Below are positions 3,005 to 60,228 of a DNA stretch of 64,000 nucleotides, piece after piece; position 1 is the stretch's first letter; the number at the start of each line of letters is the position of its first letter. The DNA lies in assembly GCF_000730285.1 (NCBI RefSeq), contig NZ_CP007174.1:1054001-1118000 (forward strand), read 5' to 3'. Position numbers and translations under genes: made by a program. Origin of the DNA: Candidatus Nitrososphaera evergladensis SR1 (GTDB lineage: Archaea > Thermoproteota > Nitrososphaeria > Nitrososphaerales > Nitrososphaeraceae). The notes beneath the pieces are model-generated. The model had not been told where the DNA came from, made no database searches, and worked only from the letters and a program-made list of their open reading frames with translations.

Positions 3005-3580
3005 TTGGCAAGCCTTTTGCCGTCATCGTCATCATCCTCGGCCGTCTTCCGGTATTACGGCGCCTCTGCGTGGGAAATAGAGACGCTGTACGACACGCTG
3101 TCAAGGTCGTACGACGTGCAGGATTCTGAAGTCCCGGCAGACGACCCGCAGTTTGTCACGATGGTCGAGATAGGCTTTCCTTCTCCTTTTGGCGAGCCAT
3201 TTTTCCAAGAGTTTACGATGGAAAGCTGGTTCAAGGTAAAGGGCGTGCTAAAAGACATGAAGAAGAGGCGGGGCAGAAAAGGCGTGAAAACCTACATCCG
3301 CTTTGCCAGCTTTGAGGGCGGAAAAACTCCGGTGGTTTTCCCGCTCCTGTCAAAGGGCGACCGCCAGTACGAAATGGGCGTGGAAAAGCTGGAATACCTT
3401 GTGGACATTGTCCCGCTGCAGCTAAAGACGGTGCCAAAGGACGCAGAGGAGGTGTGGTACTCGTACGAGGAGGCGACCTTCAAGTGGAGCCCTGCAACTG
3501 CGATGGTAAACGGCGTCAATTACCTGTACAAGAACAACGAATGGGTGCCGCCGTCGGCTGCAAAGAAATCATCAGTCTAG
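3005..3580 (+). CDS. hypothetical protein
   Basis: 191 aa from a TTG start with a Ser-rich N terminus (five consecutive Ser codons). The body is acidic-aromatic with strands such as FVTMVEIGFPSPFGEP and YIRFASFEGG. No catalytic motif is seen. The start is uncertain and an internal start is possible. Its last nine bases overlap the 3' end of the convergent gene at 3572-4012. Codon use is GC-rich like the core genome. Confidence 0.65.
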   Translation: MASLLPSSSSSSAVFRYYGASAWEIETLYDTLSRSYDVQDSEVPADDPQFVTMVEIGFPSPFGEPFFQEFTMESWFKVKGVLKDMKKRRGRKGVKTYIRFASFEGGKTPVVFPLLSKGDRQYEMGVEKLEYLVDIVPLQLKTVPKDAEEVWYSYEEATFKWSPATAMVNGVNYLYKNNEWVPPSAAKKSSV

Positions 3581-4012
3581 CTGGTTGACGACGCCCGAGT
3601 CGTGCAGTCCCTTGCTCAGCTCCTTGTACTTTTTGTCAAGGAACTCTAGCGACTCTTGCAGTTTCTTTGACTTGCCGTACTTGAAGCGCACAAGCTCGCG
3701 GTGGCGCCAATAGTGCTTGCCCTCTGACACCGACAGCGTGGTGAAATAGTCCGGCCCTTTAAGGCTGTCGTGCAGCTTGATGCTGTGCGGGAAAATGTAC
3801 TCTACTGAAAACCACTCGTCGCCATCAGGATAGTCGTTTCCTGTGACGACGTCAAAATAAAGGTGCAAAATGCTGTCGACCGTCAGGCCGTCGTCGCCAA
3901 TCGCAGGATGCTTGACTGTCGACTTGCGGTAGTCCATCTTTAGCAGCTGGGGCTCAAAGTACGCTTTGATGATGGCCCGCCTAAAGAGCTCGTTTGCTTC
4001 CTTAAGGTTCAA
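3572..4012 (-). CDS. hypothetical protein
   Basis: 146 aa cytosolic protein beginning MNLKEANELFRRAIIKAYFE. It is rich in aromatic and charged residues with no signal peptide or membrane segment. Family not recognised. Its stop overlaps the convergent upstream gene by nine bases. It is the last core-like gene before the AT-rich accessory region that begins at the tRNA-Ser. Confidence 0.7.
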   Translation of the reverse strand: MNLKEANELFRRAIIKAYFEPQLLKMDYRKSTVKHPAIGDDGLTVDSILHLYFDVVTGNDYPDGDEWFSVEYIFPHSIKLHDSLKGPDYFTTLSVSEGKHYWRHRELVRFKYGKSKKLQESLEFLDKKYKELSKGLHDSGVVNQLD

Positions 4013-4233
4013 AGATAGTATAACGGTGCGTGACTATTTTATAATCTTTTTAACGCAATGCATTAATTTTTACAAGCAAGTCTTTTGTTGCATAGGATCG
4101 TTTTTTGAGCGTGCATAATTGCATAATTTGAGCGTGGCTGTGCATAATGTGAAAAAAGCGCGGGCATTGTGTAAATGCTGCTGTGGCATAGACATTGTAT
4201 AATGGCATGTTCGCAGTAAAAAGAACTAATGGT

Positions 4234-4245
4234 TGATTAATATAA
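4234..4245 (+). promoter_or_regulatory. TATA box of tRNA-Ser
   Basis: TTGATTAATATAAT lies about 30 bases before the first base of the tRNA, the spacing expected for an archaeal TBP/TFB promoter. Confidence 0.55.
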
Positions 4246-4271
4246 TGTGGATTCCATTTGCATGACGACGG

Positions 4272-4358
4272 GCGGGGGTCGCCTAGCCTGGTAGGGCGTG
4301 GGATTGCTAATCCCATGTCCGCAAGGACCCGTGGGTTCAAATCCCACTCCCCGCGCCA
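4272..4358 (+). tRNA. tRNA-Ser (anticodon GCT)
   Basis: The acceptor stem GCGGGGG pairs with TCCCCGC (last pair G-T), with discriminator G and encoded CCA. The anticodon stem TGGGA/TCCCA carries loop TTGCTAA, anticodon GCT (codons AGC/AGU). A long variable arm with a GTCC/GGAC stem and a T-arm GTGGG-TTCAAAT-CCCAC are present, as expected of class II tRNA-Ser. No intron. The 3' half is duplicated downstream at 5088-5116, which marks it as an integration target. Confidence 0.95.
4321..4349 (+). repeat. attachment-site-like direct repeat, copy 1 (inside tRNA-Ser)
   Basis: 29 bases of the tRNA-Ser 3' half, from the variable arm through the T-arm into the acceptor stem. It is identical to 5088-5116. 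This is the pattern left when a tyrosine-recombinase element integrates into a tRNA 3' end, with this copy restoring the functional tRNA. Confidence 0.8.
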
Positions 4359-4422
4359 TATTCATGTAGTTATACACAGAGGTGAGAATATGGCTGCTGG
4401 TGTCAAGCAGTCTATACAAGAT

Positions 4423-4602
4423 TCAGACTATGCTCAGTCCTTCGGCGCATGTCCAGTGATAACGCTTGCCATGAGTCTTCTTTTCGGGAGAATAGTATCT
4501 CTGGCCTATCCTGATTGGATTTCCACAATATCTGCAAACCGGCTCTACGCCAAATCTCGTTGCTATTTTTTTGTATGAAGTCGTGCTCATAATTTTCGCC
4601 AT
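4423..4602 (-). CDS. small zinc-finger-like protein
   Basis: 59 aa from MAKIMSTTSYKK (longer start at 4647 possible). It has a Cys pair CRYCGNPI followed 22 residues later by HWTCAEG, giving a CxxC...HxxC set that could bind one zinc. The spacing resembles small treble-clef fingers that recognise DNA or protein. It lies between the two copies of the tRNA-derived repeat and so may be cargo of the integrated element. Function unknown. Confidence 0.6.
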   Translation of the reverse strand: MAKIMSTTSYKKIATRFGVEPVCRYCGNPIRIGQRYYSPEKKTHGKRYHWTCAEGLSIV

Positions 4603-4771
4603 ATGTGGCGATGCGTGCTCATTGGTAACCGTTTGTTGGTCATCCAAATGACATATTATGTCATAGTAGAAACTATTTTAGTTTTCTATCTCACTTGGAC
4701 ATTTTCTTGGTATCGTAAGGACGTTCTTACAGTGCAATCAAAACTGATTCATTTGTCGGCCTAAAACAAGG

Positions 4772-5002
4772 CTACGGAGTTAAGGTCGAGCTTGCTTCTT
4801 CTTTGTATTCGCGCCCTCTTTCGCTATAGGCTATCTTGTAGTCTTCTATCATTGATTGCTTGAGGATTTCAGCCAATCCTTCAAGCTCCTTTTCGTCATT
4901 AAGTTCTGTCCTCGTTCGCGGCTCAATTCCCAATGAACGCAAATCGGCAATTACGTCACCTTTTGTAGTGGCTTCCACAACATCACGCCCCATAATGGAC
5001 AT
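4772..5002 (-). CDS. small helical protein, paralogue of 6247-6465
   Basis: About 76 aa from MSIMGRDVVEATTKGD. The upstream part of the open frame to 5122 is a translation of the tRNA remnant and is not protein. The core LRSLGIEPRTRTELNDEKE and the following helix match the protein at 6247-6465 (LRSLGVDPKRKTGLDDKKE, then a KQSM-DYK-AYS pattern). Hydrophilic, helical, cytosolic, no known domain. A TATA-like AT-rich stretch (5010-5030) precedes the start. It is enclosed by the tRNA repeats. Confidence 0.6.
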   Translation of the reverse strand: MSIMGRDVVEATTKGDVIADLRSLGIEPRTRTELNDEKELEGLAEILKQSMIEDYKIAYSERGREYKEEASSTLTP

Positions 5003-5087
5003 ATATAAAAAATAAAATAAATAAAGGGTTTCGGTCAGTCCATTGGCGATAATCAGCCGTACAAGCTCTTGTCGACTGGCTTTGGCA

Positions 5088-5116
5088 GCAAGGACCCGTG
5101 GGTTCAAATCCCACTC
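5088..5116 (+). repeat. attachment-site-like direct repeat, copy 2 (tRNA-Ser 3' remnant)
   Basis: Exact 29-base copy of the tRNA-Ser 3' half at 4321-4349. No D-arm or anticodon arm can be drawn upstream of it, so it is a remnant rather than a second tRNA. It bounds a 0.77 kb segment with the intact tRNA. Confidence 0.8.
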
Positions 5117-5181
5117 TACCATTAATTCAATACAAATGTGCGGTTAATTAGGTTCAGCTCAAAAATTGAAGGAGGGGGTCT

Positions 5182-5313
5182 TTATTTCGTATGTACCGGC
5201 GCTTTATGCAGCCATTGGCGTATCTTCGACCCCATTACCACATAGACAAGAGCTCCACCTAGCCCCGCAATACCAGCATATATCAGAGGGTAGGTGAGGT
5301 CGGAAAAGTCCAT
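5182..5313 (-). CDS. small single-span membrane protein (43 aa)
   Basis: Begins MDFSDLTYPLIYAGIAGLGG, followed by ALVYVVMG and a basic tail KIRQWLHKAP. One glycine-rich hydrophobic helix (residues 7-27) followed by positive charges predicts an inner-facing C terminus. Start ATG and stop TAA are clean and no overlapping gene competes. Function unknown. It lies just outside the tRNA-derived repeat. Confidence 0.5.
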   Translation of the reverse strand: MDFSDLTYPLIYAGIAGLGGALVYVVMGSKIRQWLHKAPVHTK

Positions 5314-5445
5314 CTGCCTTCGCGGCTTTTATCCAGTTCGTGCTCTTTAACCACGCTTAACATAGATCAGGCTCATGTTCGGCCACGAACAGACATTTCT
5401 CGTATAACTAACATGCAGAGTGACGATGATAATTTCGGATGGAAT

Positions 5446-5736
5446 CTAAGCCTCTGCATCCCTGACCGCCTTCTCTTTTGCAGAATACAACATGCGTTGC
5501 ATTTCTCGGTAATTATTCAAAAACCTCTTTCCCTTTTCTGTCGTACGATAAAGGTTCCTGTTTTGTGGGGTGTGTTCCAAAAGTTGGTTCTCTGTCAGCA
5601 ACGCAATATACTCCTTAAGCTGTGGAAAAGACAAGAATGCGTTATACATTATCCTCGTCTTCAAGACTCCGCTACTGCCCTGCGCTATATCAAGAATCGT
5701 AGCAGCAATATCCATCCTGTTCCGGTATTTCTTCAT
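5446..5736 (-). CDS. winged-helix DNA-binding protein (HTH_45-like), copy A
   Basis: About 96 aa from MKKYRNRMDIAATILD. The order helix-helix-helix-wing is visible: RMDIAATIL, LKTRIMYNAFLS, then QLKEYIALLTENQLLE and a wing NLYRTTEKGKRFLNNY. The pattern K-TRIMY-...-L--YL--L---LL---...YRTTEKG-RFL is shared with 7391-7726, so they are paralogues. This family of short winged-helix regulators is greatly expanded in Nitrososphaera relatives. The target is not visible; single-domain size suggests dimeric DNA binding. Confidence 0.75.
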   Translation of the reverse strand: MKKYRNRMDIAATILDIAQGSSGVLKTRIMYNAFLSFPQLKEYIALLTENQLLEHTPQNRNLYRTTEKGKRFLNNYREMQRMLYSAKEKAVRDAEA

Positions 5737-5832
5737 GCGCAGCTTTCGCAAGAAAACTTTAACGAGTTTTTTTGCAATATCATTAGTGCATAAAGAGACC
5801 GTACTAAACGTAGTAATGTACTACCTGTAAAA

Positions 5833-6162
5833 CTAGTCGCATTGTAACATAGAGATCTGCTCTAGTTGCTGATTGTTATTATTGGTAGTCAGGGTATCTA
5901 CTTGGCTATCATCTACAGAACTGTTGCGTATCACTGGCGAAACTAATCCGCACTCTGCTACATAGAAATTAACTCTTTTTAGAAAAGATTGATAATAATT
6001 ATAAAAATAATAGTGTAACAAATATAGATTATATCTCAATCGGCGGCAATCCTTATATTTTACAAATGCGTATAATTGTCGGATAGCAGCCGAAGGAAGA
6101 AACATCGATACGCTTACACCGGATCGATGGACGGGGATCTTTGGATTGCCGTTTGGTTCCAA
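5833..6162 (-). other. doubtful open frame, possible gene remnant
   Basis: An open frame of 109 codons from TTG, extending further upstream without a start codon to about 6240. The first part (LEPNGNPKIPVHRSGV) looks protein-like; the middle is Tyr-rich and the end Asn/Gln-rich, typical of non-coding AT-rich DNA. It may be a decayed gene or spurious. If it is neither, the stretch 5752-6246 contains no gene. Confidence 0.25.
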
Positions 6163-6246
6163 GACTGCTATCCTTTGTAACCGTTGTTGAATCCTGACAA
6201 TTTGGCTAAAGAATGCACTGGGCTGTTGTGCAAATGAATCCTGTAA

Positions 6247-6465
6247 TCATTCTGCAGCTGATCCTGCTTCTTGCTCGAATTTGCTACCTTTTTTGCTGTA
6301 AGCAGTCTTGTAGTCCTGCAGCATTGACTGCTTTATAATATCGGCCAATTCCTTCAGTTCCTTTTTGTCATCAAGTCCTGTCTTTCTTTTTGGGTCAACA
6401 CCAAGGGAGCGCAATTCGGCGATTTCTTCTTCCTTATCATTTTCTGGAATGTTTTGTCCTGACAT
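6247..6465 (-). CDS. small helical protein, paralogue of 4772-5002
   Basis: 72 aa, MSGQNIPENDKEEEIAELRS start, then LGVDPKRKTGLDDKKELKEL and a helix with KQSMLQDYKTAYSKKG. Highly charged and soluble. Same family as 4772-5002. The shared block is about 45 residues, starting at an LRSLG motif also seen in 9127-9339. No function known; small charged helical proteins of this kind may be regulatory or antitoxin-like, but no toxin partner is next to it. Confidence 0.65.
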   Translation of the reverse strand: MSGQNIPENDKEEEIAELRSLGVDPKRKTGLDDKKELKELADIIKQSMLQDYKTAYSKKGSKFEQEAGSAAE

Positions 6466-6620
6466 GAGTGTAGATCCAAGTCATTAAAGATAAGTCTTGA
6501 CAACAAATTAACTGAAACATAGCTTATCAAACAACTTTCTGCAAGCTTGGAAAGTCGTTCATGCAGCGGAAATGTTAGCTATATGGTATCTCTTTAAAAT
6601 TATGAGGACGGTTCTCCATT

Positions 6621-6953
6621 ATGGGAAACTGTCAAGATGAACTTGCAAAACTCTGGATCTTTTTGAACCTCATTTTATACGATAACGAGGTATTGGAGGC
6701 AAAGCTGCGATACGTCACGAATCATCTTTCTGCAAAACAAAGACAATCCATAGCCGCAGAGCTGGATGATGCAATAACCTCTGACAAGGATAAGGCGAAT
6801 CAAATCCTTGTAAAAAGGACAGAGCAAATCATGGCATCTTTGCAACTGAGCCCCGCCAATCTAATGTCTCTGCAAAATGAATTGCTTGAAGAAATGAAGA
6901 GGGTCTGTAATGGTGACACTACTACTGCTACTACCAAATTTGCATTGGCGTGA
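6621..6953 (+). CDS. hypothetical helical protein
   Basis: 110 aa, mostly alpha-helical by composition: LAKLWIFLNLILYDNEVLEA, then AKQRQSIAAELDDAITSD and a C-terminal helix NLMSLQNELLEEMKRV. No signal peptide, no Cys cluster, no known domain. ATG start about 20 bases after a TTTAAAATTA promoter-like element (6592-6601). The Thr-rich end (TTTATT) is low complexity. Confidence 0.55.
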   Translation: MGNCQDELAKLWIFLNLILYDNEVLEAKLRYVTNHLSAKQRQSIAAELDDAITSDKDKANQILVKRTEQIMASLQLSPANLMSLQNELLEEMKRVCNGDTTTATTKFALA

Positions 6954-7033
6954 CTATCCGACATGACGAACAGACTCTAACGGATGCAAAAAATCCATGG
7001 GTGAGGCAGGAGGCGCAAGTAAGTGCGTTTGCC

Positions 7034-7177
7034 TCAAACTCCCGTCTCTTTAAGGAAATCAAACATTGTATTGGAAAGAATCGTGCCATTGCCTTTGCAG
7101 GCCTCGCACGTTGCAGTGCTAGAACCCGTCATGACATACCCTCTTCCCTTGCAATTCTGGCAAATTTCTTTTGACAT
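7034..7177 (-). CDS. mini zinc-finger protein with two CxxCxGxG-type motifs (47 aa)
   Basis: MSKEICQNCKGRGYV then CEACKGNGTI, i.e. two CxxCxGxG motifs 17 residues apart, the zinc-binding unit of the DnaJ cysteine-rich domain, with no J-domain attached. The protein is complete: ATG, 47 codons, TGA. It is related in design to the 64 aa protein at 10838-11032. Likely folds round one zinc; possibly a protein- or RNA-binding accessory factor (inference). Confidence 0.6.
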   Translation of the reverse strand: MSKEICQNCKGRGYVMTGSSTATCEACKGNGTILSNTMFDFLKETGV

Positions 7178-7390
7178 GCAGAGACCAGCTAGGAAAATGG
7201 ATGAGCTATTTTAATCTCACCAATCTATGTGCGCTCGAATCAAAACATTTTCTGTGTTATTAACGCATGATTTATCTCTGTGATAAGTATCTGACACATA
7301 GTTACATTATTATTCCGTATCGTAGTGTCTTGAATCACATATACATGATAAAAACAACCAAGATTGAAGGCGTGGTGGTGGAAAGTACCA

Positions 7391-7726
7391 ATGAAATTTA
7401 GAAGCAGAGTGGATATAGCCGCAGAGATTCTCGATGCCGCAAAAGATGGTCAGTTGAAGACAAGGATAATGTATGAATCCCATACTTCGGTCAAGCAACT
7501 GAACCCGTACCTGGATCTTCTCATCGAAAGCGAACTGCTGGAGTATCTGCCAGAGGAGAGGATTTATCGTACGACAGAAAAGGGCAATCGTTTTCTCGAT
7601 GGCTATCAAAAAGCCTGGCACATACTCTTTTATGCAAAGAGCAAAAAAGCCTCAAAACAAGAGGAGGCTGTTTCCATTGTCAGCAGCAGGAACAATAACA
7701 ACAGCAGCGGTCAGAACGTGAGTTAG
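7391..7726 (+). CDS. winged-helix DNA-binding protein (HTH_45-like), copy B
   Basis: 111 aa from MKFRSRVDIAAEILD, aligned with the start of copy A at 5446-5736. Recognition-helix region LKTRIMYESHTSVKQLNPYL and wing RIYRTTEKGNRFLDGY are conserved. An added Ser/Asn-rich tail (residues 95-111) is likely disordered. A start nine codons upstream (7364) gives a Trp-rich extension that does not match the paralogue and is rejected. Probable local transcription regulator. Confidence 0.75.
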   Translation: MKFRSRVDIAAEILDAAKDGQLKTRIMYESHTSVKQLNPYLDLLIESELLEYLPEERIYRTTEKGNRFLDGYQKAWHILFYAKSKKASKQEEAVSIVSSRNNNNSSGQNVS

Positions 7727-7869
7727 CGGCTGCGGAAAAATTTTGCTGCTGTAACTCGATTGGCCGTGTTTTTTTATGTTATGGCACAATATCTTCGCGC
7801 ACACGCCCTGTAGGCCCTGATGAAACGTTGCAGCTTCTTTTGTCTGCGGCAGCGCATGTTTTGCTGTGG

Positions 7870-8055
7870 CTAGGCCTTGTATACCGCGTCTTTTATGCAG
7901 GCATCGCAGTACTTCCGGACTATTATCGCTCCCTCCACCTTGAACAGTGCTTCGGTAGTTGCAACCGCCTTGTCGCATTCTATACAAAATGCCACCTTCT
8001 TTCTAAGGGCAAGCTGTACCGGCCTTGTTGCAAAGGGTCTTGTCGCCACTACCAT
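7870..8055 (-). CDS. small double-CxxC zinc-binding protein
   Basis: 61 aa with FCIECDKAVATTEALF and RKYCDACIKDAV: two CxxC pairs about 25 residues apart with a strand pair between, a zinc-ribbon-like design. The protein at 50198-50359 has the same plan (CMLCPD...RYCDKC), so they form a small family. Start ATG; a shorter start is possible. Function unknown; likely DNA- or protein-binding. The 286 bases between it and the next gene are AT-rich and show only the promoter of 8342. Confidence 0.6.
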   Translation of the reverse strand: MVVATRPFATRPVQLALRKKVAFCIECDKAVATTEALFKVEGAIIVRKYCDACIKDAVYKA

Positions 8056-8309
8056 GTTGCTGAAAAATCTACTAGATGAATTTACACGTCACGACTGCGT
8101 TTATTTTTGAATATTTTATTATTGTAAACAATTTGAAGATATATGCAGAGTGGGATTGGAAAAAGAACACTGGCTATTTCACTTCATTCCGGCAAGCATC
8201 TCTCACGTTATTTTTGCCCCGCTTGTCATCCCTTTTTCCTGTCCAAATATGTAATGATCTACCTGACTTTTCATGTACTAGAATGTAATAGAAAGAGATA
8301 AGAAAAAAG

Positions 8310-23193: not shown

Positions 23194-24216
23194 ATGAAGG
23201 TCGCAGTCGTGGGCATCGGCGTGGCCGGCGCGTACCTGATGAACCGGCTTTCTGACATGCGCGACGTGCGCGTGACGGGCTTTGAGCGTATGCCGGAGGA
23301 CCAGCACGACGCCGTGTGCGCGTGGGCAACGTGCGAAAACGTCATGTCCGGCCTTGCGAAAAACTGCGGCCTCAACTTTGACGACTATGTTCTGCATCAG
23401 GGCAGGCACATGAAGGTCGACCTGAATTCTGACGACTATGTCGATTTAAAGCTGAAAGGGATGGTCAGCTATGACAAACTAAAACTGATCCAGGACATGA
23501 TAAAGGGGACTGAAATAAAATTCGGCCGCGCGCCAAGGAAAGAGGAACTGGAGCCGGATTTCGACCTCATAATCGACGCGACCGGCTTTCACAGGAACTA
23601 TCTGCCGCGCCTTGAAAACGAGCTGTGGATCCCGTGCGTGCAGTACAAGGTGCGCTACAAGCCGGGACGCGAGCCCTTTGACGATTTCTACCTGAAGGCG
23701 TTTCCGTCGATGACTGGCTATTTCTGGTATTTCCCGCTTGGAAACGGCTATGCCCATATTGGCGCCGGCGACTTTGCCAAGGCGCACAACCCGCTTGTAC
23801 AAGAGTTTCTGAAAAAACACGAATGCGAAACCATCAAAAAAGTGGGAAGGCCGGTGCGCATCAGCCCTCCTGCAAACTGCGAGCCCTTCACCGACGGCCG
23901 CAAGTGCGTGGGCGTGGGCGAGTCCATAGGCACGGTGTTTGCGCTCCTTGGCGAGGGCATAATCCCATCGACTTGGTGCGCCGACCTGTTTGTACAGAAC
24001 ATGGACGACCTGCAGGCGTACCGCGACGCGGTAATGAAAAAGTTTCAGGTGTATTCGCTCATCTTCAAGTTCGTGCAGCTAAAGATACAGGGCAAGTTCA
24101 ACATGGTGAGGCACGCAGGGGACATGCTAAAGATCTACAGGCACATGAAGGGCGAGGAAGACAGGTACGGCATGGCGGTCAGGATGGCCGACATGCTCAA
24201 GGTCTCGCAGGTCTAG
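23194..24216 (+). CDS. geranylgeranyl reductase-like FAD-dependent oxidoreductase
   Basis: 340 aa flavoprotein. The FAD-binding GxGxxG is at the N terminus (VAVVGIGVAGAYLMNRL), the second FAD motif is LIIDATGFHRNYLP (about 128), and YFWYFPLGNGYAHIGAGD (about 178) with CVGVGESIGTVFALLGEGI (about 240) match the geranylgeranyl reductase family. Such enzymes saturate archaeal lipid or quinone isoprenoid chains at the membrane. Shorter than the typical 390-400 aa GGR, so the exact substrate is open. Confidence 0.82.
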   Translation: MKVAVVGIGVAGAYLMNRLSDMRDVRVTGFERMPEDQHDAVCAWATCENVMSGLAKNCGLNFDDYVLHQGRHMKVDLNSDDYVDLKLKGMVSYDKLKLIQDMIKGTEIKFGRAPRKEELEPDFDLIIDATGFHRNYLPRLENELWIPCVQYKVRYKPGREPFDDFYLKAFPSMTGYFWYFPLGNGYAHIGAGDFAKAHNPLVQEFLKKHECETIKKVGRPVRISPPANCEPFTDGRKCVGVGESIGTVFALLGEGIIPSTWCADLFVQNMDDLQAYRDAVMKKFQVYSLIFKFVQLKIQGKFNMVRHAGDMLKIYRHMKGEEDRYGMAVRMADMLKVSQV

Positions 24217-24286
24217 AGAAGAAGAAAAAACGTCATCATGGTTATTGCCTTGCACTTTTTACCTACATCTTGCCAGCTGCTGGCGG

Positions 24287-24309
24287 CATCATCATCATCA
24301 TCATCATCT
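24287..24309 (+). repeat. CAT trinucleotide tract
   Basis: About seven consecutive CAT/ATC units in the space between the convergent genes ending at 24216 and 24304. Probably a slippage tract with no coding role. Confidence 0.6.
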
Positions 24310-24687
24310 TTTTGCTTCCCACAGTGCGAAAATGTTGTTTTCCGTGTCCATGCAAATTGCAAGCCAGCCTAGGCCGGGGACTTCTGTCTTTGGAACCATC
24401 ACCTTGCCTCCAAGCCTTTCGACCTTTTTCGAGTATTCTATCGCAGAGTCGACGCCGATATAGTTCGTGATCGAATGTTTCGGGTACATCCTGTTCATTA
24501 TGCCTCCGCTTATAGGCTGCTGTCCTTCATTTTCATCGCCGGTCCTAAACGTCCAGTATTCTATAGGGCCGCCTTCCATGGAGGCACCCTGCGTTCTTTC
24601 CGCCTTCCATCCAAACAGGCCGTCGTAGAATTTCTTTGCGCGCTCTATGTTGTCGGCAGGTATTTCAAAGTGAACTATTGAAGCCAT
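24304..24687 (-). CDS. VOC-family (glyoxalase-like) protein
   Basis: 127 aa from MASIVHFEIPADNIERAKKF. Two beta-alpha-beta-beta-beta modules of the vicinal-oxygen-chelate fold: the first with HFEIP and FYDGLFGWKAE, the second with NYIGVDSAIEYSKKVERLGG ending NIFALWEAKR. His and Glu at the expected metal positions are present in part. Subfamilies include glyoxalase I and resistance proteins; substrate not known. Possible two-gene unit with 24715-25119. Confidence 0.85.
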   Translation of the reverse strand: MASIVHFEIPADNIERAKKFYDGLFGWKAERTQGASMEGGPIEYWTFRTGDENEGQQPISGGIMNRMYPKHSITNYIGVDSAIEYSKKVERLGGKVMVPKTEVPGLGWLAICMDTENNIFALWEAKR

Positions 24688-24714
24688 TTGCAACTCTCGC
24701 CTCTCCTTGTGTTC

Positions 24715-25119
24715 TCACACTATGCGGCTGAACCCGCCGGTAACGAGGCTCTGCCCTTGCGCGATTTCGCCGTAGAACTCTTTGACAACCTTGTTGATGC
24801 TCTCGTCCTTTATCACGTTGGAAAGAACCTTGTCCGCGTGATCCCTGTCTCTAAAGAACTGCTGCAGGACCCAGAGATCCTCGCCTTCATCGGCAGCAGA
24901 AAGAATGTTGGCAATGCTTTTGCAGCCAGTGGGAACGTCGCGGGTGCCAAGCAAGAACGTCTCTGAGCGCAGCATCCCATGCTTTCTCCAAATCTGGTCG
25001 TTTTGCCTGCCGACCTGTACTACTGCGTCGCGGTTCTTTTTCGGCGCCCGCCAAAAGGTAAGCGCGACATAACTTCCAATCTCTATTTCTCTTGCAGGTT
25101 CGGTTGTGCTGTTATTCAT
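24715..25119 (-). CDS. hypothetical protein, possible dimeric alpha-beta barrel
   Basis: 134 aa from MNNSTTEPAREIEIGSYVAL. A strand-helix pattern IGSYVALTFWRAPKKNRDAV, then GEDLWVLQQFFRDRDHADKV, resembles the DUF1428/ABM dimeric alpha-beta barrel in layout (helix followed by a repeated strand with RDRDH). It lies just upstream of the VOC gene on the same strand, so the two may be co-transcribed. No catalytic residue set is identified. Confidence 0.6.
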   Translation of the reverse strand: MNNSTTEPAREIEIGSYVALTFWRAPKKNRDAVVQVGRQNDQIWRKHGMLRSETFLLGTRDVPTGCKSIANILSAADEGEDLWVLQQFFRDRDHADKVLSNVIKDESINKVVKEFYGEIAQGQSLVTGGFSRIV

Positions 25120-25259
25120 GCGTGCACTATTGCACGTAACATAAAAGGCATTGCTCCCCAAGGGGAGGTGCTTGTCAACTAGAGAGAAAGAATCGTGCGT
25201 TTTGACATCGGATAATCTAAAGCTTTAAAAATCGTGCCGGGGCAGTGAGTTTGAGACAT

Positions 25260-34591: not shown

Positions 34592-34758
34592 AACTTGCAG
34601 CCGCTCGTGGCATCTGTCTAGTAACTGGCACACACGTTTTGCGTACTGTGCGCATGTCAGAGATATAGCACCGGCTGAATACTCTGAAAAAAAACAAAGC
34701 CAGCTTATGCGCAAGCAGGGTATTACTCCCGGCTGGCCAAAATGGTAAGTGCAGGTTT

Positions 34759-35022
34759 GCTGAAAAGAAAGGTGGGCAAGTATATTATTATCTTGCCACG
34801 CTTGGCAAGGCGATTCATCAAAGCGTGTTAAAGATAGCGGGAGACGCGATTGACAACCAATGGAAACCCAAGGCAATCGATACGATGGAGATGCAAAAAG
34901 ACATTCCGATTGAAGAATGCAGAAAGCTGGTTGAAGAGCTGCTAGGCAGCCTGGAAATTAAACAAATCTTTTACGAGGAAATGTGGTGTATTCACCTCTG
35001 CCCTCAGTTCTATGTCGCCTGA
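34759..35022 (+). pseudogene. winged-helix regulator remnant (C-terminal half)
   Basis: In-frame translation AEKKGGQVYYYLATLGKAIH, QSVLKIAGDAIDNQWKPKAID and IEECRKLVEELLGSLEIKQIF reads like the wing and C-terminal helices of the thaumarchaeal winged-helix regulators that carry a 'Y-LT--GK-V' wing followed by 'W-LKAID'. The HTH part is missing and no ATG precedes the wing; GTG 34825 could start a 65 aa product. Either a decayed regulator or a truncated one. The rest of 34592-35250 holds no gene. Confidence 0.5.
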
Positions 35023-35250
35023 CTTGATCTAAGCAAAAGTCTTACCGGTCTGTCAGTTAATCCTGCTCTTGATTCCAAAAGAGGACTTTTAGTGATTGCA
35101 AATCTCTGCAACACACACATGTCCTACAATGCTCCGCTTTTAGAAACTGCTTAAATACTACTTGTCGTGCCTGCAATACTGTTTATGCCAGTTACTACTT
35201 TCAGCAACTAAATTAATCTCCTCCCGAAACTATCACCAGCGTGAGCGTAG

Positions 35251-36219
35251 TTGAGTGAGGAGGCAGACCAATATGAAAAGCTTGAACTGGAACAAGAAAA
35301 AACTACAGCAGCGGCGACGACGACAACAACTGCATGGGAAAAAAATGCAAAGCAACAGATTCTGCTGTTTTTGCACTATGTAAAAGCCCGGTCGAACGTT
35401 TACATTTTTGCCTTTGCGACTTTTGTATCATTTCTAATCGGCTCAAACGGCAACTACGATGCACTTGTCGGCCTGCGCGTGGCAGCAAGCTGCTACTTTT
35501 TAGCACTTGCCACATACATCTACAACGATGTAACTGACTTTGAGGTAGACAGGGTAAACAAAACCAACAGGCCATCAGTCACCGGAAACGCCTCGAGGAA
35601 GCAGCTCTCGGGTCTGGTTTTTGTCTTGTTCGGTTTGTCGCTGGCACTTGCAGCTTCTATAAACATTCAAACACTGCTCATTGCATTGTTGTGTGTAGCC
35701 CTGGGTGCAACATACTCGCATCCAAGGTTTAACTTGAAAGAAAGGTTTCCTCTAAAAACAGTAACTACTGCGGCAGGTGCAGCGCTTTCCTCGTTGTTGG
35801 GTGGAGCTGCTGCTACGCATATATCATTTCCAATAGTCTACGCAGCACTTTCGTTTTTCCTCTTCTTTTTTGTGCTTGGGCCGCTAGGAGATATTGGCGA
35901 CCTCAAAGGCGACAGGGCCGCTGGAAGGAGAACCTTTCCAATTGTACTGGGTACGAGAAAGACCTTGATTATCATGTTTTCCGTGCCTGTCATTCTGTTT
36001 CTGCTGATAATCACGCAACAATTCTACAAGGTGGCGACCTTTCAGAACGGTTCGTTTGGAGTGTACATGATAGTTGGCACCTGCCTTGTCGCCATGACAA
36101 TGATCGTCAAAATAAGTAAAAAGATAGAGGATGTCGGCTGGATCCGCGGCCGCGTAAGGCCTGTTATGAGGTTACTCCATGCACTGCTGCAGATCTCGAC
36201 ACTGTTTGCGTTCCTGTAA
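35251..36219 (+). CDS. UbiA-family prenyltransferase
   Basis: 322 aa, eight to nine membrane helices after a 40-residue hydrophilic N terminus with a Thr/Ala run. First Asp motif YNDVTDFEVDRVNKTNRPS (NDxxDxxxD, about 89), second DIGDLKGDRAAGRRTFP (about 211). UbiA enzymes add prenyl chains to quinones, hemes or, in archaea, to make digeranylgeranylglyceryl phosphate; which one is not decided. Start TTG, with TATA-like AAATTAATC at 35211-35219. Confidence 0.88.
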   Translation: MSEEADQYEKLELEQEKTTAAATTTTTAWEKNAKQQILLFLHYVKARSNVYIFAFATFVSFLIGSNGNYDALVGLRVAASCYFLALATYIYNDVTDFEVDRVNKTNRPSVTGNASRKQLSGLVFVLFGLSLALAASINIQTLLIALLCVALGATYSHPRFNLKERFPLKTVTTAAGAALSSLLGGAAATHISFPIVYAALSFFLFFFVLGPLGDIGDLKGDRAAGRRTFPIVLGTRKTLIIMFSVPVILFLLIITQQFYKVATFQNGSFGVYMIVGTCLVAMTMIVKISKKIEDVGWIRGRVRPVMRLLHALLQISTLFAFL

Positions 36220-36225
36220 AATCAA

Positions 36226-37194
36226 TCAACGTGGCAATAGATTACTAGATCTACTGCTTGCAACTGCACGGCAGCCGCCATCATCATGCATTGTAGTAGT
36301 AGAAGAGTAGTAGTCTTCTGAGGCGGCATCCCATATTTTCTGATAGAATTCCATCAGCCCTGTGCAGGCCTTCTTGTCCTTTATGAAAATGGCCCCCGTA
36401 AATTTGTCCGAATTACTCCTCCCTATCAGCTCGAAACCCGCATGTTTGCCATCTATGATTGCCATGCTGAACGGGACGTGCGCAATCCTTCTCTTGACGT
36501 TCCTTGGATACCACGGATTTCTTACCATATTTAGGCGCTCCAAAGAGTGCTCGTCTGTCAAATTCAGGTATTTTTTCTCCATTTCGACGAAGCTGTTGAC
36601 CATCTTTGCGTCGGCCAGTATTCTTACGTTTACGCCTGCTTTTGTCTTGTTGAGGATGCTGTTTATCAGCACTTCGTTGAGGAATCTGGTGGCAAAGACT
36701 ATCTCTTGCTTTGCAAATTCTATGGTTTCAGCTAGCTTGGATGCAGCCTCTTCATAAGTCCAGACGAGATCAATTTTTGATGATGATGATAATGATTCTT
36801 GGACATCAAGACCGCCTATATTCTTGGCAAATTCCGAGATGTCCTCTTCAGAAAATTCTCCTGCGCGTTTTAGCGTGTCTATCATCCGGAATTGTTTGGT
36901 TAGCCTGATATTCTCTACAAGTCCTGAAATATGCCTTTGATGAATCACGTTTCCAAGCGTGGTGTAAACATACGTATCTCCGTGTTTTTCAACAAGACCT
37001 GCGTCCTTTAGCTGATTAAGCCTTGTATAGTACTGCTTCTTTGAAAGCCCAATGCTAGATGCTGTGCGCAGTTCGGACCTCAAGCCGTCCTTGACAAGCA
37101 GGAAAAGAGCCAGCGTGTCTCTTCTTGACAGGACAGCAAACAAATTTGCAGCACTTTTCACCGATTCAGGTCCTAATGGTGTGTCAGTTGCCAT
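36226..37194 (-). CDS. TrmB-like winged-helix regulator with PLD-like C-terminal domain
   Basis: 322 aa from MATDTPLGPESVK. N-terminal winged helix (residues 15-90: LFAVLSRRDTLALFLLVKDG; GLSKKQYYTRLNQLKDAGLV; YVYTTLGNVIHQ), then a helical linker with four Ser, and a C-terminal phospholipase-D-like module (KQEIVFATRFLNEVLINSIL; GVNVRILADAKM; SMAIIDGKHAGFELIGRS). The usual HxK of active PLD is absent, so it probably binds a ligand, as in TrmB/FmdE-linked archaeal regulators. Convergent with the UbiA gene. Confidence 0.8.
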   Translation of the reverse strand: MATDTPLGPESVKSAANLFAVLSRRDTLALFLLVKDGLRSELRTASSIGLSKKQYYTRLNQLKDAGLVEKHGDTYVYTTLGNVIHQRHISGLVENIRLTKQFRMIDTLKRAGEFSEEDISEFAKNIGGLDVQESLSSSSKIDLVWTYEEAASKLAETIEFAKQEIVFATRFLNEVLINSILNKTKAGVNVRILADAKMVNSFVEMEKKYLNLTDEHSLERLNMVRNPWYPRNVKRRIAHVPFSMAIIDGKHAGFELIGRSNSDKFTGAIFIKDKKACTGLMEFYQKIWDAASEDYYSSTTTMHDDGGCRAVASSRSSNLLPR

Positions 37195-37383
37195 TATATG
37201 ATATGTGCCTATGAGCAACCTTATAATTATTTCTATGTCATGTCAACAGACAACATGTAAATTTTGTAAATTTTATCATATGGACTTCTAAAACAAGCTA
37301 CGTGTGTATGTATAAGGCATCTGAAAAGTGGACAGCGGTAGCAAAACACCAGATGGCCTTCGCAAAAGGGACGCACAAAAGAA

Positions 37384-37400
37384 TCTCTCTCTCTCTCTCT
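37384..37400. repeat. CT dinucleotide tract
   Basis: About eight CT units followed by T-rich sequence, just 3' of tRNA-Gln on its strand (a purine-rich GA run there). 37195-37427 otherwise contains AT-rich promoter sequence of the 36226 gene and no gene. Confidence 0.5.
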
Positions 37401-37427
37401 GCTACCTTTTTTGTGGATAAAGGAAAA

Positions 37428-48727: not shown

Positions 48728-49507
48728 TTGGCCCTGATTTTCCAGCAGATAAGAAGAATGGATTCTGGCTGCGTCACGTACCTGGTAGGGTCGACTGAAA
48801 CAAAAGAGTGCGCTATCGTCGACCCGCTCCTTGACGCCGATTATGTGATGGAGGAGGCAAAAAAGGCCGGCCTAAAGATAGCGTACGTGATTGACACGCA
48901 CACGCACGCCGACCACATCTCCGGCGCACGAGCCATCGCCAAAAAGTCCCGCCTTCCCGGCGTCCACATGTCTGAAAAGTCGCAGGGCAAGTTCAAGACG
49001 ATAATCCCAGTCAGAGACGGGCAGGCGATAAAACTTGGACAGGACGTCGAACTAAAGTTTGTCTATACGCCGGGCCACACATACGACCACGTGTGCGTTC
49101 TTGTCAACAACGAAAAGGTGCTGACGGGCGACACGCTCTTTATCGGAGACGTGGGGCGAATCGACCTTGGCGGCGACGCCCGCGACAAGTCCGACAAACT
49201 GTTTGACAGCCTGCATGGAAAGCTGATGAAGCTTGCAGACGGAGTGGAGGTGTACCCGACGCACGTTGGGGCTGCCCACCACCTTGCCAACGCCAAGATG
49301 TCATCAACCATCGGCGCCGAGCGGGAAAACAACGGCGCGCTAAAGGCTTCTGACAAGGATGCCTTTTTCAAGTACATGACCGAGGACTGGCCGCCCAAGC
49401 CACCGGACTATCAGAACATAATTCGCGTCAATTCATCAGATGACTGGCTGTATGGGTTTGTGACAAACGACCTGATGAAGAAGTGGCTTGCTGAGGACAA
49501 GGAATAG
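48728..49507 (+). CDS. MBL-fold hydrolase, persulfide dioxygenase (ETHE1)-like
   Basis: 259 aa metallo-beta-lactamase fold. Metal motif THTHADH at residues 57-63; second His in YTPGHTYDHVCV (about 115); Asp in GDTLFIGDVGRIDLGG (about 136); last His in YPTHVGAAHHL (about 175). One iron is expected, by family, in the ETHE1 group acting on glutathione or related persulfides; glyoxalase II-like activity is an alternative. No rhodanese domain. Start TTG. Confidence 0.85.
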   Translation: MALIFQQIRRMDSGCVTYLVGSTETKECAIVDPLLDADYVMEEAKKAGLKIAYVIDTHTHADHISGARAIAKKSRLPGVHMSEKSQGKFKTIIPVRDGQAIKLGQDVELKFVYTPGHTYDHVCVLVNNEKVLTGDTLFIGDVGRIDLGGDARDKSDKLFDSLHGKLMKLADGVEVYPTHVGAAHHLANAKMSSTIGAERENNGALKASDKDAFFKYMTEDWPPKPPDYQNIIRVNSSDDWLYGFVTNDLMKKWLAEDKE

Positions 49508-49513
49508 CAGCTT

Positions 49514-50053
49514 CTAGTTTCCGGTTTTCTCTTCCAGCAGGGTCATGCACGCGTCGAGCAATTCTAAAAGCTGGGAATGGTTGAGGTTGCATTCCTTGAG
49601 CTTTTGCACGTTTAGTCCAAGACTGCCAAGGGCCCTGTACACTTCTGTGCTCTCCAGCAGCTCTACCAAAGCTTCTGGCTCAAAGGGCTTTTGAATTATC
49701 TCTACTCTGTCGTACAACTCGTTTTGCAGTTCCACGGTGTATTGCACAGAGTCAGAGACAAACACAATCCTCTGATGGAGGTTGGCTAGTAGGATTTCTT
49801 TGGCTGCCTGCAGGCCGTCTTCTCTGTACGAAACCGTGTGGTTTAGTATGACTGCGTCAAAAGGCAAGATGCGAACGGTAGAAGAGTCTTCATTTGCCGC
49901 AACAGCGCAAGCCTGTTCTAATTCTGACTTGTATTTTTCTAGGCACTCTTTGGCATCTGCGGCAATCAAGACGTGGTAGCCGGATTTCAGTAGAGTGCTT
50001 TCGTAAAACGCCAGATCGCTCTTGTTGTTTTCAGCAATTAGTACTCTTTTCAC
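49514..50053 (-). CDS. degenerate response-regulator receiver protein
   Basis: 179 aa. Receiver fold with KRVLIAENNKSDLAFYESTL start, a DAVILNHTVSYREDGLQAAK phosphoacceptor strand and conserved Lys in IIQKPFEPEAL. The phospho-Asp position reads Asn (VILNH) and the acidic pair is E/N, so phosphorylation in the normal way is unlikely. A 30-residue insertion with acidic residues separates strands 2 and 3. The C-terminal 40 residues (GSLGLNVQKLKECNLNHSQL) match the small protein at 9127-9339. Probably a phosphorylation-independent scaffold. Confidence 0.8.
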   Translation of the reverse strand: MKRVLIAENNKSDLAFYESTLLKSGYHVLIAADAKECLEKYKSELEQACAVAANEDSSTVRILPFDAVILNHTVSYREDGLQAAKEILLANLHQRIVFVSDSVQYTVELQNELYDRVEIIQKPFEPEALVELLESTEVYRALGSLGLNVQKLKECNLNHSQLLELLDACMTLLEEKTGN

Positions 50054-50197
50054 AAAAGTGAGGGTAGAACCGCATGACAGGTATTAATCCGTATTGCAAA
50101 AAGAAGATAGAAGTAGTTAAATAGATCTGTACATTAGATGCATAATCACATTAATAGTGGTTTTTTTATACACAATAACATGCTAAAACCATCTAAA

Positions 50198-50359
50198 ATG
50201 AGACCCATTGAGAAAAAGAAGCACCAGATGCCATCGTATTGCATGTTATGCCCAGACGTGGCAACAAAAGAAGTATTGTACGAGCTGGAGAACTGTGTCG
50301 TGGTCCAAAGGTATTGTGATAAATGCCTGCCCAGCGCAGAATATGCAAATCCTCAATAA
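50198..50359 (+). CDS. small double-CxxC zinc-binding protein
   Basis: 53 aa from MRPIEKKKHQMPSYCMLCPD; the second pair is RYCDKCLP. Same plan as 7870-8055. ATG 50198 is chosen because a TTTTTATACAC box at about 50161 lies 30 bases upstream; in-frame ATGs at 50138 and 50180 lengthen it. Function unknown. The 220 bases to the next gene show no other convincing frame. Confidence 0.55.
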   Translation: MRPIEKKKHQMPSYCMLCPDVATKEVLYELENCVVVQRYCDKCLPSAEYANPQ

Positions 50360-50581
50360 ACTCTTTTCTTTGATGGTAAAAAGAATTCTTCTTTCCTCTG
50401 CAGCAAAAGAGGTTAGCAAGAAAATTACTGTCGTTGAATTTTAAACAACAATTTTGGGAAAGGTGGCTTTTTTGTCGGCCCAAAAGGATTATCTTAAATA
50501 ACCTCATAGCCTTCCCACGTTCGTGTGGCGATTCTTGATGATGTCTACGTCACAGTATGATGGAGTCTATGTGTATCGTCA

Positions 50582-51055
50582 ATGAAACTTTGCGCACTAG
50601 ACAGGGAGATACTGAAAATAATTCTTGCGCCGCACAACGGCAAAATTATCAGCTCAAAGGAAATAGCCAAAAGGCTTTCGGTTCCAGCCACGACCGTTCA
50701 GAGACATCGAAGAAAACTAGAAGATGAGGAAATACTGACAGCCTCCTACTGTTTAAACCTAAAGAGGTTCGGCTTGCGGCATGTTGATTTTCTAGTTTCG
50801 ACACAAAACGGCAAGACAATGCTGGTGATAAAGAAACTGGAAAAAATGAAAGAAGTAGTATCTGTCACAAGGAGCATAGGCCAGCCGACAATCGACCTGC
50901 AAGTCGAAACAATTCTGATGGACAACGAGGAAATACTCAACATGCTTGAGACCATAAAGGGCATGGATGGCGTAAGGGACGCGATCTGGTCAGAATCCAT
51001 ACAGCGTGTCGTGCAAAAGGCCGCAGTTCCGTATCATCTGCTTGATTACGTCTAG
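50582..51055 (+). CDS. Lrp-like HTH regulator, copy 1
   Basis: 157 aa. HTH ALDREILKIILAPHNGKIIS then KRLSVPATTVQRHRRKLEDE; a C-terminal half with RFGLRHVDFLVSTQNGKTML and VVSVTRSIGQPTIDLQVETI reminiscent of an AsnC sensor. Closely similar to the gene at 51901-52368 (SVPATTVQR, RFG-R-VDFL, RSIGQ-TIDL). Leaderless start possible. Ligand and targets unknown. Confidence 0.8.
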   Translation: MKLCALDREILKIILAPHNGKIISSKEIAKRLSVPATTVQRHRRKLEDEEILTASYCLNLKRFGLRHVDFLVSTQNGKTMLVIKKLEKMKEVVSVTRSIGQPTIDLQVETILMDNEEILNMLETIKGMDGVRDAIWSESIQRVVQKAAVPYHLLDYV

Positions 51056-51101
51056 TCACATCTGTCACTCTGTGTGTATATATATGCTAAAAAATAATCA
51101 G

Positions 51102-51653
51102 TTATTTCTTCGTCGTCGTTGTTGTGACACGCTTGCTTGTCTTTTCGCGTTTGTTTTTTCCAAGTATCTTTGTCAACTTGGGGCTCGTAGACATTGCATA
51201 CACTTCTTCTGACCATACGACTCTTTCTACTCCATTCATTTGCTTTGTCCACGCTATCAAATCTAGCACTTCACGACTATCCTGAAACACAAAAAATCCC
51301 ACGATATCTGAATTCCCGATATGCGCTCCGACCGAGTAAATGCCGTCGCGTGCGAGAAGCTTGTCCACAGCATCTGAAACGTTCCCATCGTCCAGATAGA
51401 CGTGGAGAAATCCTTTCTTGACTCTGAGCCTTGAGTATCCTAATTCAAAAGTAGGCTTTAGCGCTCCATTCTGAATTAGCAGTCGGGCTCTTCTCTGGAT
51501 TGTGCTCAGCGGCCTTTCTAGAATCTGAGCGCTTTGCCTAGTTGTGTGACCTGATAGTAAGAGATCAATTAACTTTAGGTCAACCTCGTCTAGACGCAAT
51601 TCTGATTGCGTATTCACATTGATGCCTTCTTGGGGGTCGATGGGCTCAGACAA
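51102..51653 (-). CDS. Lrp-like HTH regulator, divergent copy 2
   Basis: 183 aa. HTH DEVDLKLIDLLLSGHTTRQS then QILERPLSTIQRRARLLIQN; sensor half LRVKKGFLHVYLDDGNVSDA and YSVGAHIGNSDIVGFFVFQD ending VERVVWSEEVYAMS, followed by a basic tail with six Thr. Same architecture as 50582 and 51901 but more diverged. The tail is low complexity. Confidence 0.75.
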   Translation of the reverse strand: MSEPIDPQEGINVNTQSELRLDEVDLKLIDLLLSGHTTRQSAQILERPLSTIQRRARLLIQNGALKPTFELGYSRLRVKKGFLHVYLDDGNVSDAVDKLLARDGIYSVGAHIGNSDIVGFFVFQDSREVLDLIAWTKQMNGVERVVWSEEVYAMSTSPKLTKILGKNKREKTSKRVTTTTTKK

Positions 51654-51900
51654 GGTTGTTTGCTTCCCCCATATCTTCCGTCATGTTATATTGAGCGATG
51701 ACGGATTATATGAATGGAAGTAATCTGCCAGCGTTACAAAAAACCATGTTTACAATCAAAGATGCATTTTTTGTCATTCTGCATCACGTGAAATGATGGT
51801 TTTGCTCTTGCTGCAGTTTTATGCATTTTGGAATTCTTTGTATGAAGAAAGCTGTCGTACCGTCTTGGACTTTTTCGGCTACGAGAAAGAAAATCTCTCT

Positions 51901-52368
51901 TCAGAGTTTATCGATTATGTGTAGGGGAACCGAGGGCTTTTTTCCAACCACCTGGACTATCTCGCTCCAAACTACATCTTTGATGCCTGGCATGGACTTC
52001 AATTGCTCCATGATCCGGAGAATGTCTGCATTTCCCTCAAGAATCGCCTGAACGTGCAGATCTATGGTTTGCTGGCCTATGCTCCTGCCAACATAAACAA
52101 CTTCGTCAAGTTTTGAAAGTTGTTTTGCAATCGCAATAGTCCTGCCCTTCTCGGTGGCAATAAGAAAATCTACCCTGTGCCAGCCAAACCTTTTCAAATC
52201 CAGCGAGTATGTTATGGTCAAAAGATCGTCTTCCAGCTTTCGCCGGCGCCTTTGTACAGTAGTTGCTGGAACGCCGAGTTTGTCTGCAATCGCTTTTGAG
52301 GATATTCTCCCATTTGGGGTAAGAAGGATCTTTAAAAGATCCTTGTCCAATTTTGAGAGCCGCTTCAC
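51901..52368 (-). CDS. Lrp-like HTH regulator, copy 3
   Basis: 155 aa from GTG 52368 (MKRLSKLDKDLLKILL), matching the start of copy 1; the frame beyond to 52422 is not conserved. HTH DKLGVPATTVQRRRRKLEDD; sensor RFGWHRVDFLIATEKGRTIA and YVGRSIGQQTIDLHVQAILE. The 250 bases between it and 51653 hold no gene, only AT-rich divergent/convergent spacer. Confidence 0.8.
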   Translation of the reverse strand: MKRLSKLDKDLLKILLTPNGRISSKAIADKLGVPATTVQRRRRKLEDDLLTITYSLDLKRFGWHRVDFLIATEKGRTIAIAKQLSKLDEVVYVGRSIGQQTIDLHVQAILEGNADILRIMEQLKSMPGIKDVVWSEIVQVVGKKPSVPLHIIDKL

Positions 52369-52422
52369 ACGCGTGATGATTATGAATCTAAATGCTATTA
52401 AATGTAATGCCGTTTGACTCAC

Positions 52423-52928
52423 TTTTTTCCATTAGAATGATCATTTTCGCTCGTTTCAGGCCGTGTCATGAGTTTTTATTCACAAATATCAATAATTGTG
52501 ATTTGTGCTACTCCAAAGGTAACTATTTATCTCAAAATACTAGAGAATGTGATTCAGAAAACAATACTATTGCAAGAATTGGGCATGGGGGCAGTAATAG
52601 ACTGGACCAAAACTTTGATGGTGCTCCAAGCGATATATACTCTTTATAATTATGGATTGTATTTTCGTGAACGGCCAGCAAAAAAGTAAGGGGGTGAAGT
52701 TTGCTTGGAATCAGGCACAATTTGCCATGGCGCGCTGCTGGCGCGCGCCAGACAAGTGCTAATGATGACGGCAACAACAAAATTTACGATGTTTCTGAAT
52801 GTGTCCTCTTGTTACCACTTGTCGATCATCAGCTCATGCCTTTTTCTTGCGTCAGTATATCCGAAATGTGCAAAAAGCACCAGTGCGAGATAGTTTAAAT
52901 CCGATCTCCGGGATATGGTGGCTGCAGC
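52423..52928. other. gene-poor interval before the NHL gene
   Basis: About 500 AT-rich bases. One frame, 52468-52689 (73 aa, MSFYSQISIIVICATPKVTI start, two hydrophobic stretches), could be a small membrane protein but has no supporting motif. GATAGTTTAAATCC at about 52889 fits the promoter of the 52929 gene, and an inverted GCGCGC-rich stretch lies at 52731-52749. Confidence 0.35.
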
Positions 52929-60144: not shown

Positions 60145-60228
60145 CTTTCTTGCGCGTGGTGTGTGCTAGTCCTTACATATAATCTCAATGACTTTAAATC
60201 TCGCGAATTACAATATCCCAAAGCAGGC

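Follow-up and report, generated by a model that had tools for sequence, protein, structure and literature searches.

A 767-bp insertion in tRNA-Ser(GCT) of Candidatus Nitrososphaera evergladensis SR1 as a probable integrase-less remnant of a mobile element

Introduction

How did 29 bases of a tRNA-Ser(GCT) gene come to lie a second time, 767 bp further along the chromosome of Candidatus Nitrososphaera evergladensis SR1—a soil ammonia-oxidising archaeon—and is the DNA between the two copies still able to move? We approached this question through a window of 64 kb (the whole stretch of DNA analysed, positions 1,054,001-1,118,000 on one 2,954,373-bp contig of a 2.95-Mb genome) and through comparison with relatives, among them G015 (2,527,938 bp) and G011 (2,833,868 bp). 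An initial annotation of the locus had recognised the attL/attR pattern of tRNA-targeting integrases and proposed that the enclosed DNA is either a deletion remnant or a small satellite mobilised in trans. Our analysis favours, with a probability of roughly two in three, an integrase-less remnant of a mobile element that integrated site-specifically in tRNA-Ser(GCT).

Results

An exact repeat of the tRNA and an empty site in a sister genome

According to ARAGORN, the window contains a single tRNA, tRNA-Ser(gct) at 4272-4358. Sequence inspection and a repeat finder both recovered the exact repeat previously noted, in which 29 nt at 4321-4349 recur at 5088-5116 with a spacing of 767; allowing 2 mismatches extends the match to 34 nt. 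The second copy stands without other tRNA parts, as had been claimed, since ARAGORN detected none beside it. In a whole-genome scan at up to 3 mismatches, the 29-nt core was found at these two places alone and its reversed-sequence control nowhere, which excludes a chance origin of the repeat. The features of the locus and of two related insertions are compiled in Table 1.

Table 1. Coordinates of the tRNA-Ser(GCT) insertion, its putative attachment sites and two comparable insertions
Feature	Position	Strand	Basis or remarks
tRNA-Ser(GCT), whole; taken as the rebuilt left attachment site (attL)	4272..4358	+	ARAGORN; sequence same as the G015 tRNA
Direct repeat of 29 bp, copy 1; att core within the tRNA	4321..4349	+	Sequence, repeat finder, whole-genome scan
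Inserted DNA	4359..5087	.	Missing from G015 (empty-site alignment); 42% G+C vs 51.5% for the window
ORF of 59 aa, cysteine-rich, zinc-ribbon-like	4423..4602	-	74 aa if translation begins at 4647, the earliest possible start
Small ORF B, 76 aa	4772..5002	-	Paralogous copies lie at 449.6 kb, at window 6247-6465 and within the cdc48 insert
38-bp copy (92%) of the cdc48/VAT AAA+ ATPase 3' end (...PKPVDKSLYG stop)	5050..5087	-	Abuts the tRNA copy directly
Direct repeat of 29 bp, copy 2; taken as attR, the displaced original tRNA 3' part	5088..5116	+	Repeat finder, genome scan, G015 alignment
Decayed remains of what was the tRNA acceptor end, then orthologous flank	5117..5130	+	CCCGCGCCATTTTGATTCC in G015 vs TACCATTAATTCA in the window
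Insertion of ~760 bp at the cdc48/VAT 3' end	L031 6830-7612 (G000:C1 about 1,390,829-1,391,611)		Flanked by an imperfect direct repeat derived from the cdc48 end; contains ORF B
G015 insertion of 1.88 kb close to the 3' terminus of a gene for an aldo/keto-reductase-like protein	L086 5274-7154 (G015:C1 about 485,273-487,153)

The same place is empty in G015, a member of the same genus, which identifies the structure as a real integration scar. Window 3572-4365 aligns to 2,486,589 at its right end (from 2,485,796) and window 5088-6173 to 2,486,545-2,487,638, so that window positions 4365 and 5088 join in G015 on a single unbroken tRNA gene; since the two alignments overlap there by 45 bases on one gene, the window genome carries a clean 767-bp insertion. 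The suggestion to look for an empty tRNA-Ser site in a close relative was therefore borne out, with the G015 flanks joining exactly at the repeat, even if the difference may reflect a precise loss in G015 and not a gain in the window genome. To the right of copy 2 the G015 flank resumes, yet the acceptor end has changed from CTCCCCGCGCCATT to CTCTACCATT—the change that would be predicted of a displaced original tRNA 3' end that then decayed.

Integrases beside the same tRNA in relatives

An integrase gene, of the kind the initial annotation had thought worth searching for, directly adjoins this tRNA in three relatives, with a far repeat in two of them (G003 and G011). A 472-aa Phage_integrase protein of G003 (PF00589, 30.5 bits against a cut-off of 27.1) is encoded on the same strand and begins 66 bp past tRNA-Ser(GCT); the element measures 13.5 kb, and its attR, at that distance, repeats 22 bp of the tRNA end. 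The integrase of G011 is 91% identical to that of G003 and occupies the same position, with the matching copy (attR) 18.7 kb away, while G018, from another genus, has an integrase 54% identical to the G003 protein at the same place. Moreover, G012 carries a 1.29-kb integrase-free scar after tRNA-Ser(GCT) (L036) that encodes a single ORF of 376 aa and whose 45-bp repeat starts at the anticodon. The acceptor strand of the far tRNA copy is lost in both integrase-free cases (the window genome and G012) and intact in G003 and G011. Across 59 public contigs, nearly all matches to the tRNA core fell within intact tRNA-Ser genes, the single long second copy being the G012 scar, and viral contigs gave no match to the core; a larger ancestral form of the 767-bp insert was found in none of the relatives compared. 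The locus thus combines an intact tRNA at the near end, a repeat of its 3' part at the far end, an empty site in a close relative and a target tRNA used by integrase-bearing elements of relatives. The empty site and the three adjoining integrases together support the attL/attR interpretation.

As a separate observation, the T-loop of tRNA-Ser(GCT) in G020 (L044 3127-3230; G020:C15 about 29,126), a gene overlooked by ARAGORN, is broken by ~21 extra bases, possibly a non-canonical intron or a sign of a damaged gene.

Contents of the insert and traces of an integrase

The 767-base insert is foreign-looking DNA and does contain, as first described, only two tiny genes and no integrase. Both genes lie on the minus strand, and one start had to be corrected: a reading frame of 116 aa (4772-5122) starts within the tRNA copy, with the conserved gene covering approximately 4772-5002. 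That this longer frame might be an integrase fragment was considered and rejected, its N-terminal part being the cdc48 tail out of frame. Neither the 59-aa ORF nor ORF B reaches a Pfam cut-off, and the remaining tRNA-Ser(GCT) loci compared lack both. Among 41 family genomes, paralogs of the 59-aa ORF occur in its own genome alone, and viral contigs contain no relatives of it; ORF B has no close homologs in one-per-species genome contigs, and the insert as a whole matches no plasmid. A dN/dS of ~0.2 against its paralogs indicates that the ORF B family is real and under purifying selection. We also entertained ORF B as a hallmark of mobile elements, an idea left unsupported: it is widespread in the family, and at the family loci checked no tRNA or integrase lies closer to it than about 10 kb. 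The copy at 449.6 kb sits on a synteny break, with no clean insertion, and another lies in a block (window 6174-8245) between a winged-helix gene and a CAP-domain gene that is wholly unlike G015 (2.1 vs 5.5 kb).

The repeat finder detected no inverted repeats at the insert ends, in contrast to an insertion sequence or MITE, which would have terminal inverted repeats and a short target duplication. Its ORFs are all too short for an integrase gene. Searches by tblastn with four integrases (three from the same genome, one from G003) revealed no trace of an integrase (best E 2.9); neither end of the insert showed integrase similarity, although short pieces of an integrase gene split by attP, as in SSV-type elements, could escape a search with these four queries. 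Genome-wide, PF00589 has six matches; the best of them shows 24% identity to the tRNA-Ser(GCT) integrase and adjoins tRNA-Asp. As the genome yielded no integrase closely resembling the known tRNA-Ser(GCT) type, mobilisation in trans is unsupported. Additionally, the insert core of 29 bp (variable arm to acceptor), compared with 22 bp in G003 and G011, implies that a different recombinase may be needed. With its right repeat lacking the acceptor strand and its integrase absent, the insert is probably immobile at present, judging from its sequence; the broken attR and the failure to find a close cognate integrase make an immobile remnant its most likely state.

A cdc48 gene end inside the insert

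The 38-bp tail next to the tRNA copy matches the end of the cdc48/VAT gene at 1,390.8 kb, covering ~11 codons, the stop and 3 bases beyond. In the insert the tail is followed by ORF B, the same order as at the genome's own cdc48 locus, where a further ORF B copy lies in a distinct 760-bp insertion at the 3' end of the gene; relative to G015, the repeats AAGAGCTTTTACGGCTGAT and AAGAGCTACTATTACGGTTGAT stand 760 bp apart there. Of 20,000 random 50-base segments drawn from the window, 46 contained a repeat equal in quality to the right cdc48 one. The cdc48 3' end is empty in G015 and G001 and holds ~600 bp without ORF B in G002; a shared hotspot at this gene end was considered and rejected on these observations. 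With only ~60% identity between their ORF B copies, the tRNA insert was not copied recently from the local cdc48 insert, and a related donor is the likelier source. We read the tail and ORF B as chromosomal DNA captured by the element. The direct contact of the tail with the tRNA core, however, has no simple site-specific account and counts against an integrated element.

Other small insertions

The 1.88-kb insertion of G015 contains ORF B together with a short zinc-finger ORF similar to window 7870-8055, shares a core of just 6-7 bp and has no detected integrase; the window genome is empty at that place. Along the window, several more insertions or deletions separate the two genomes. An insertion of ~1 kb relative to G015 (24219-25214), with a 7-8-bp end repeat, lies at the stop codon of the gene at 23194-24216 and holds glyoxalase-like and DUF1428 genes. 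Gene blocks at 34594-37425 (2.8 kb), beginning right past a stop codon, and at 49427-52888 (3.5 kb) are missing in G015, which in turn has, at window 60183-60191, a 1.41-kb insertion with a 9-bp flanking repeat, TCTCAATGA; both its length and its repeat are characteristic of an insertion sequence.

One could envisage a Nitrososphaera class of integrase-free inserts of 0.7-1.9 kb, often with gene B, that enter the 3' ends of conserved genes (tRNA-Ser, cdc48, reductase) by means of recombinases supplied in trans and bear the 3' end of a former target, such as the cdc48 tail in the tRNA insert. We consider such a class quite unlikely and keep it as a possibility only, because short end repeats, of 7-8 bp and similar length, can be chance and because, elsewhere in the family, the ORF B loci checked have no integrase or tRNA nearby.

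Discussion

What is observed at this locus—the insertion, its repeat, the empty site, the integrase elements at this tRNA in relatives and the cdc48-derived DNA—can be accommodated in a scheme of site-specific integration followed by loss. A mobile element would have entered the 3' half of tRNA-Ser(GCT), presumably through the action of a tyrosine recombinase; its attP would have brought a matching 3' half, leaving a whole tRNA on the left and pushing the original 3' half to the right. A larger element may then have been trimmed to 767 bp, the residue comprising two short accessory ORFs and captured chromosomal DNA (the cdc48 gene end with gene B behind it), and movement would have been lost along with the integrase and the acceptor strand of the right repeat.

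A genuinely small non-autonomous element with one or two cargo genes, moved in trans by the integrase of another element, is rather unlikely, although several findings speak for it: one genome contains two integrase-free ORF-B inserts that are nearly alike in size (767 and 760 bp), lie at gene 3' ends and have empty sites in G015 as well as target-derived direct repeats; ORF B is under purifying selection; and other integrase-free scars exist, of 1.29 kb in G012 and of 1.88 kb, with ORF B, at the 3' end of the reductase gene in G015. Against it, the two inserts have ORF B alone in common and differ in their ends, ORF B is widespread away from integrases and tRNAs, the right repeats of both inserts are decayed and no close cognate integrase was found. 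Between the two options initially put forward, the remnant thus fits better than the satellite, given the right att copy without its acceptor strand and the failure to find a close tRNA-Ser(GCT)-type integrase in the genome, and neither is proven.

Break repair or template switching could also have assembled a patchwork that copied the tRNA 3' half and the cdc48 3' end with no site-specific recombination. The 38-bp cdc48 tail fused directly to the tRNA copy at the right end is what a template switch would give, and the insert lacks terminal inverted repeats; but its position and polarity are exactly those of tRNA integration, this tRNA 3' end receives two further kinds of insertion in relatives and the G012 repeat starts at the anticodon, so that we regard such an origin as distinctly improbable. 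A chance repeat or a conserved non-mobile sequence has next to no standing, as nothing was found in its support, the 29 exact bases are unique in the genome and the insert is absent from G015, whose empty site refutes it.

An integrase-free scar at this tRNA has implications beyond the single locus. Short integrase-free scars exist that searches based on integrases or signature genes would miss; tRNA-Ser(GCT) is an integration site used repeatedly in Nitrososphaera; the cdc48 tail offers a traceable instance of chromosomal gene capture; and, with the companion insertion at cdc48, there is a direct test case for whether mini-inserts move.

Among thaumarchaeal integrations with defined sites described in PMC6563490, more than half target tRNA genes, and all of these except one are at the 3' end. 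The cryptic integrated elements (CIE) of that account (Krupovic et al. 2019, PMC6563490) resemble the window insert in their insertion into the 3' half of a tRNA, the rebuilt tRNA, the direct repeat and the empty site in a sister species, but they share the integrase as their most conserved gene and measure 2.6-98 kb; lacking an integrase, which a CIE encodes, and at 0.77 kb, the insert falls outside their definition. As for the 760-bp cdc48 insert, it is reminiscent of the integration of the NitEve-E2 type into the 3' end of a protein gene, as presented in PMC6563490; NitEve-E2 is a high-confidence element listed there, whereas the cdc48 insert is 0.76 kb long with no integrase match, and cdc48 is absent from the integration targets named in the main text of that paper. 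The tRNA-Ser(GCT) elements of G003, G011 and G018 follow the pNOB8-type layout, in which an intact integrase gene and the rebuilt tRNA are neighbours on one strand (PMC3293823). They share the tRNA and the side with the window insert, which has neither their intact same-strand integrase adjoining the rebuilt tRNA nor the 22-bp core of G003 and G011. Finally, the tRNA gene fragments left by integrations (PMC9897764) differ from the window insert in bounding ~9-23 kb of viral DNA and are like it in consisting of a partial 3' tRNA copy without other tRNA parts.
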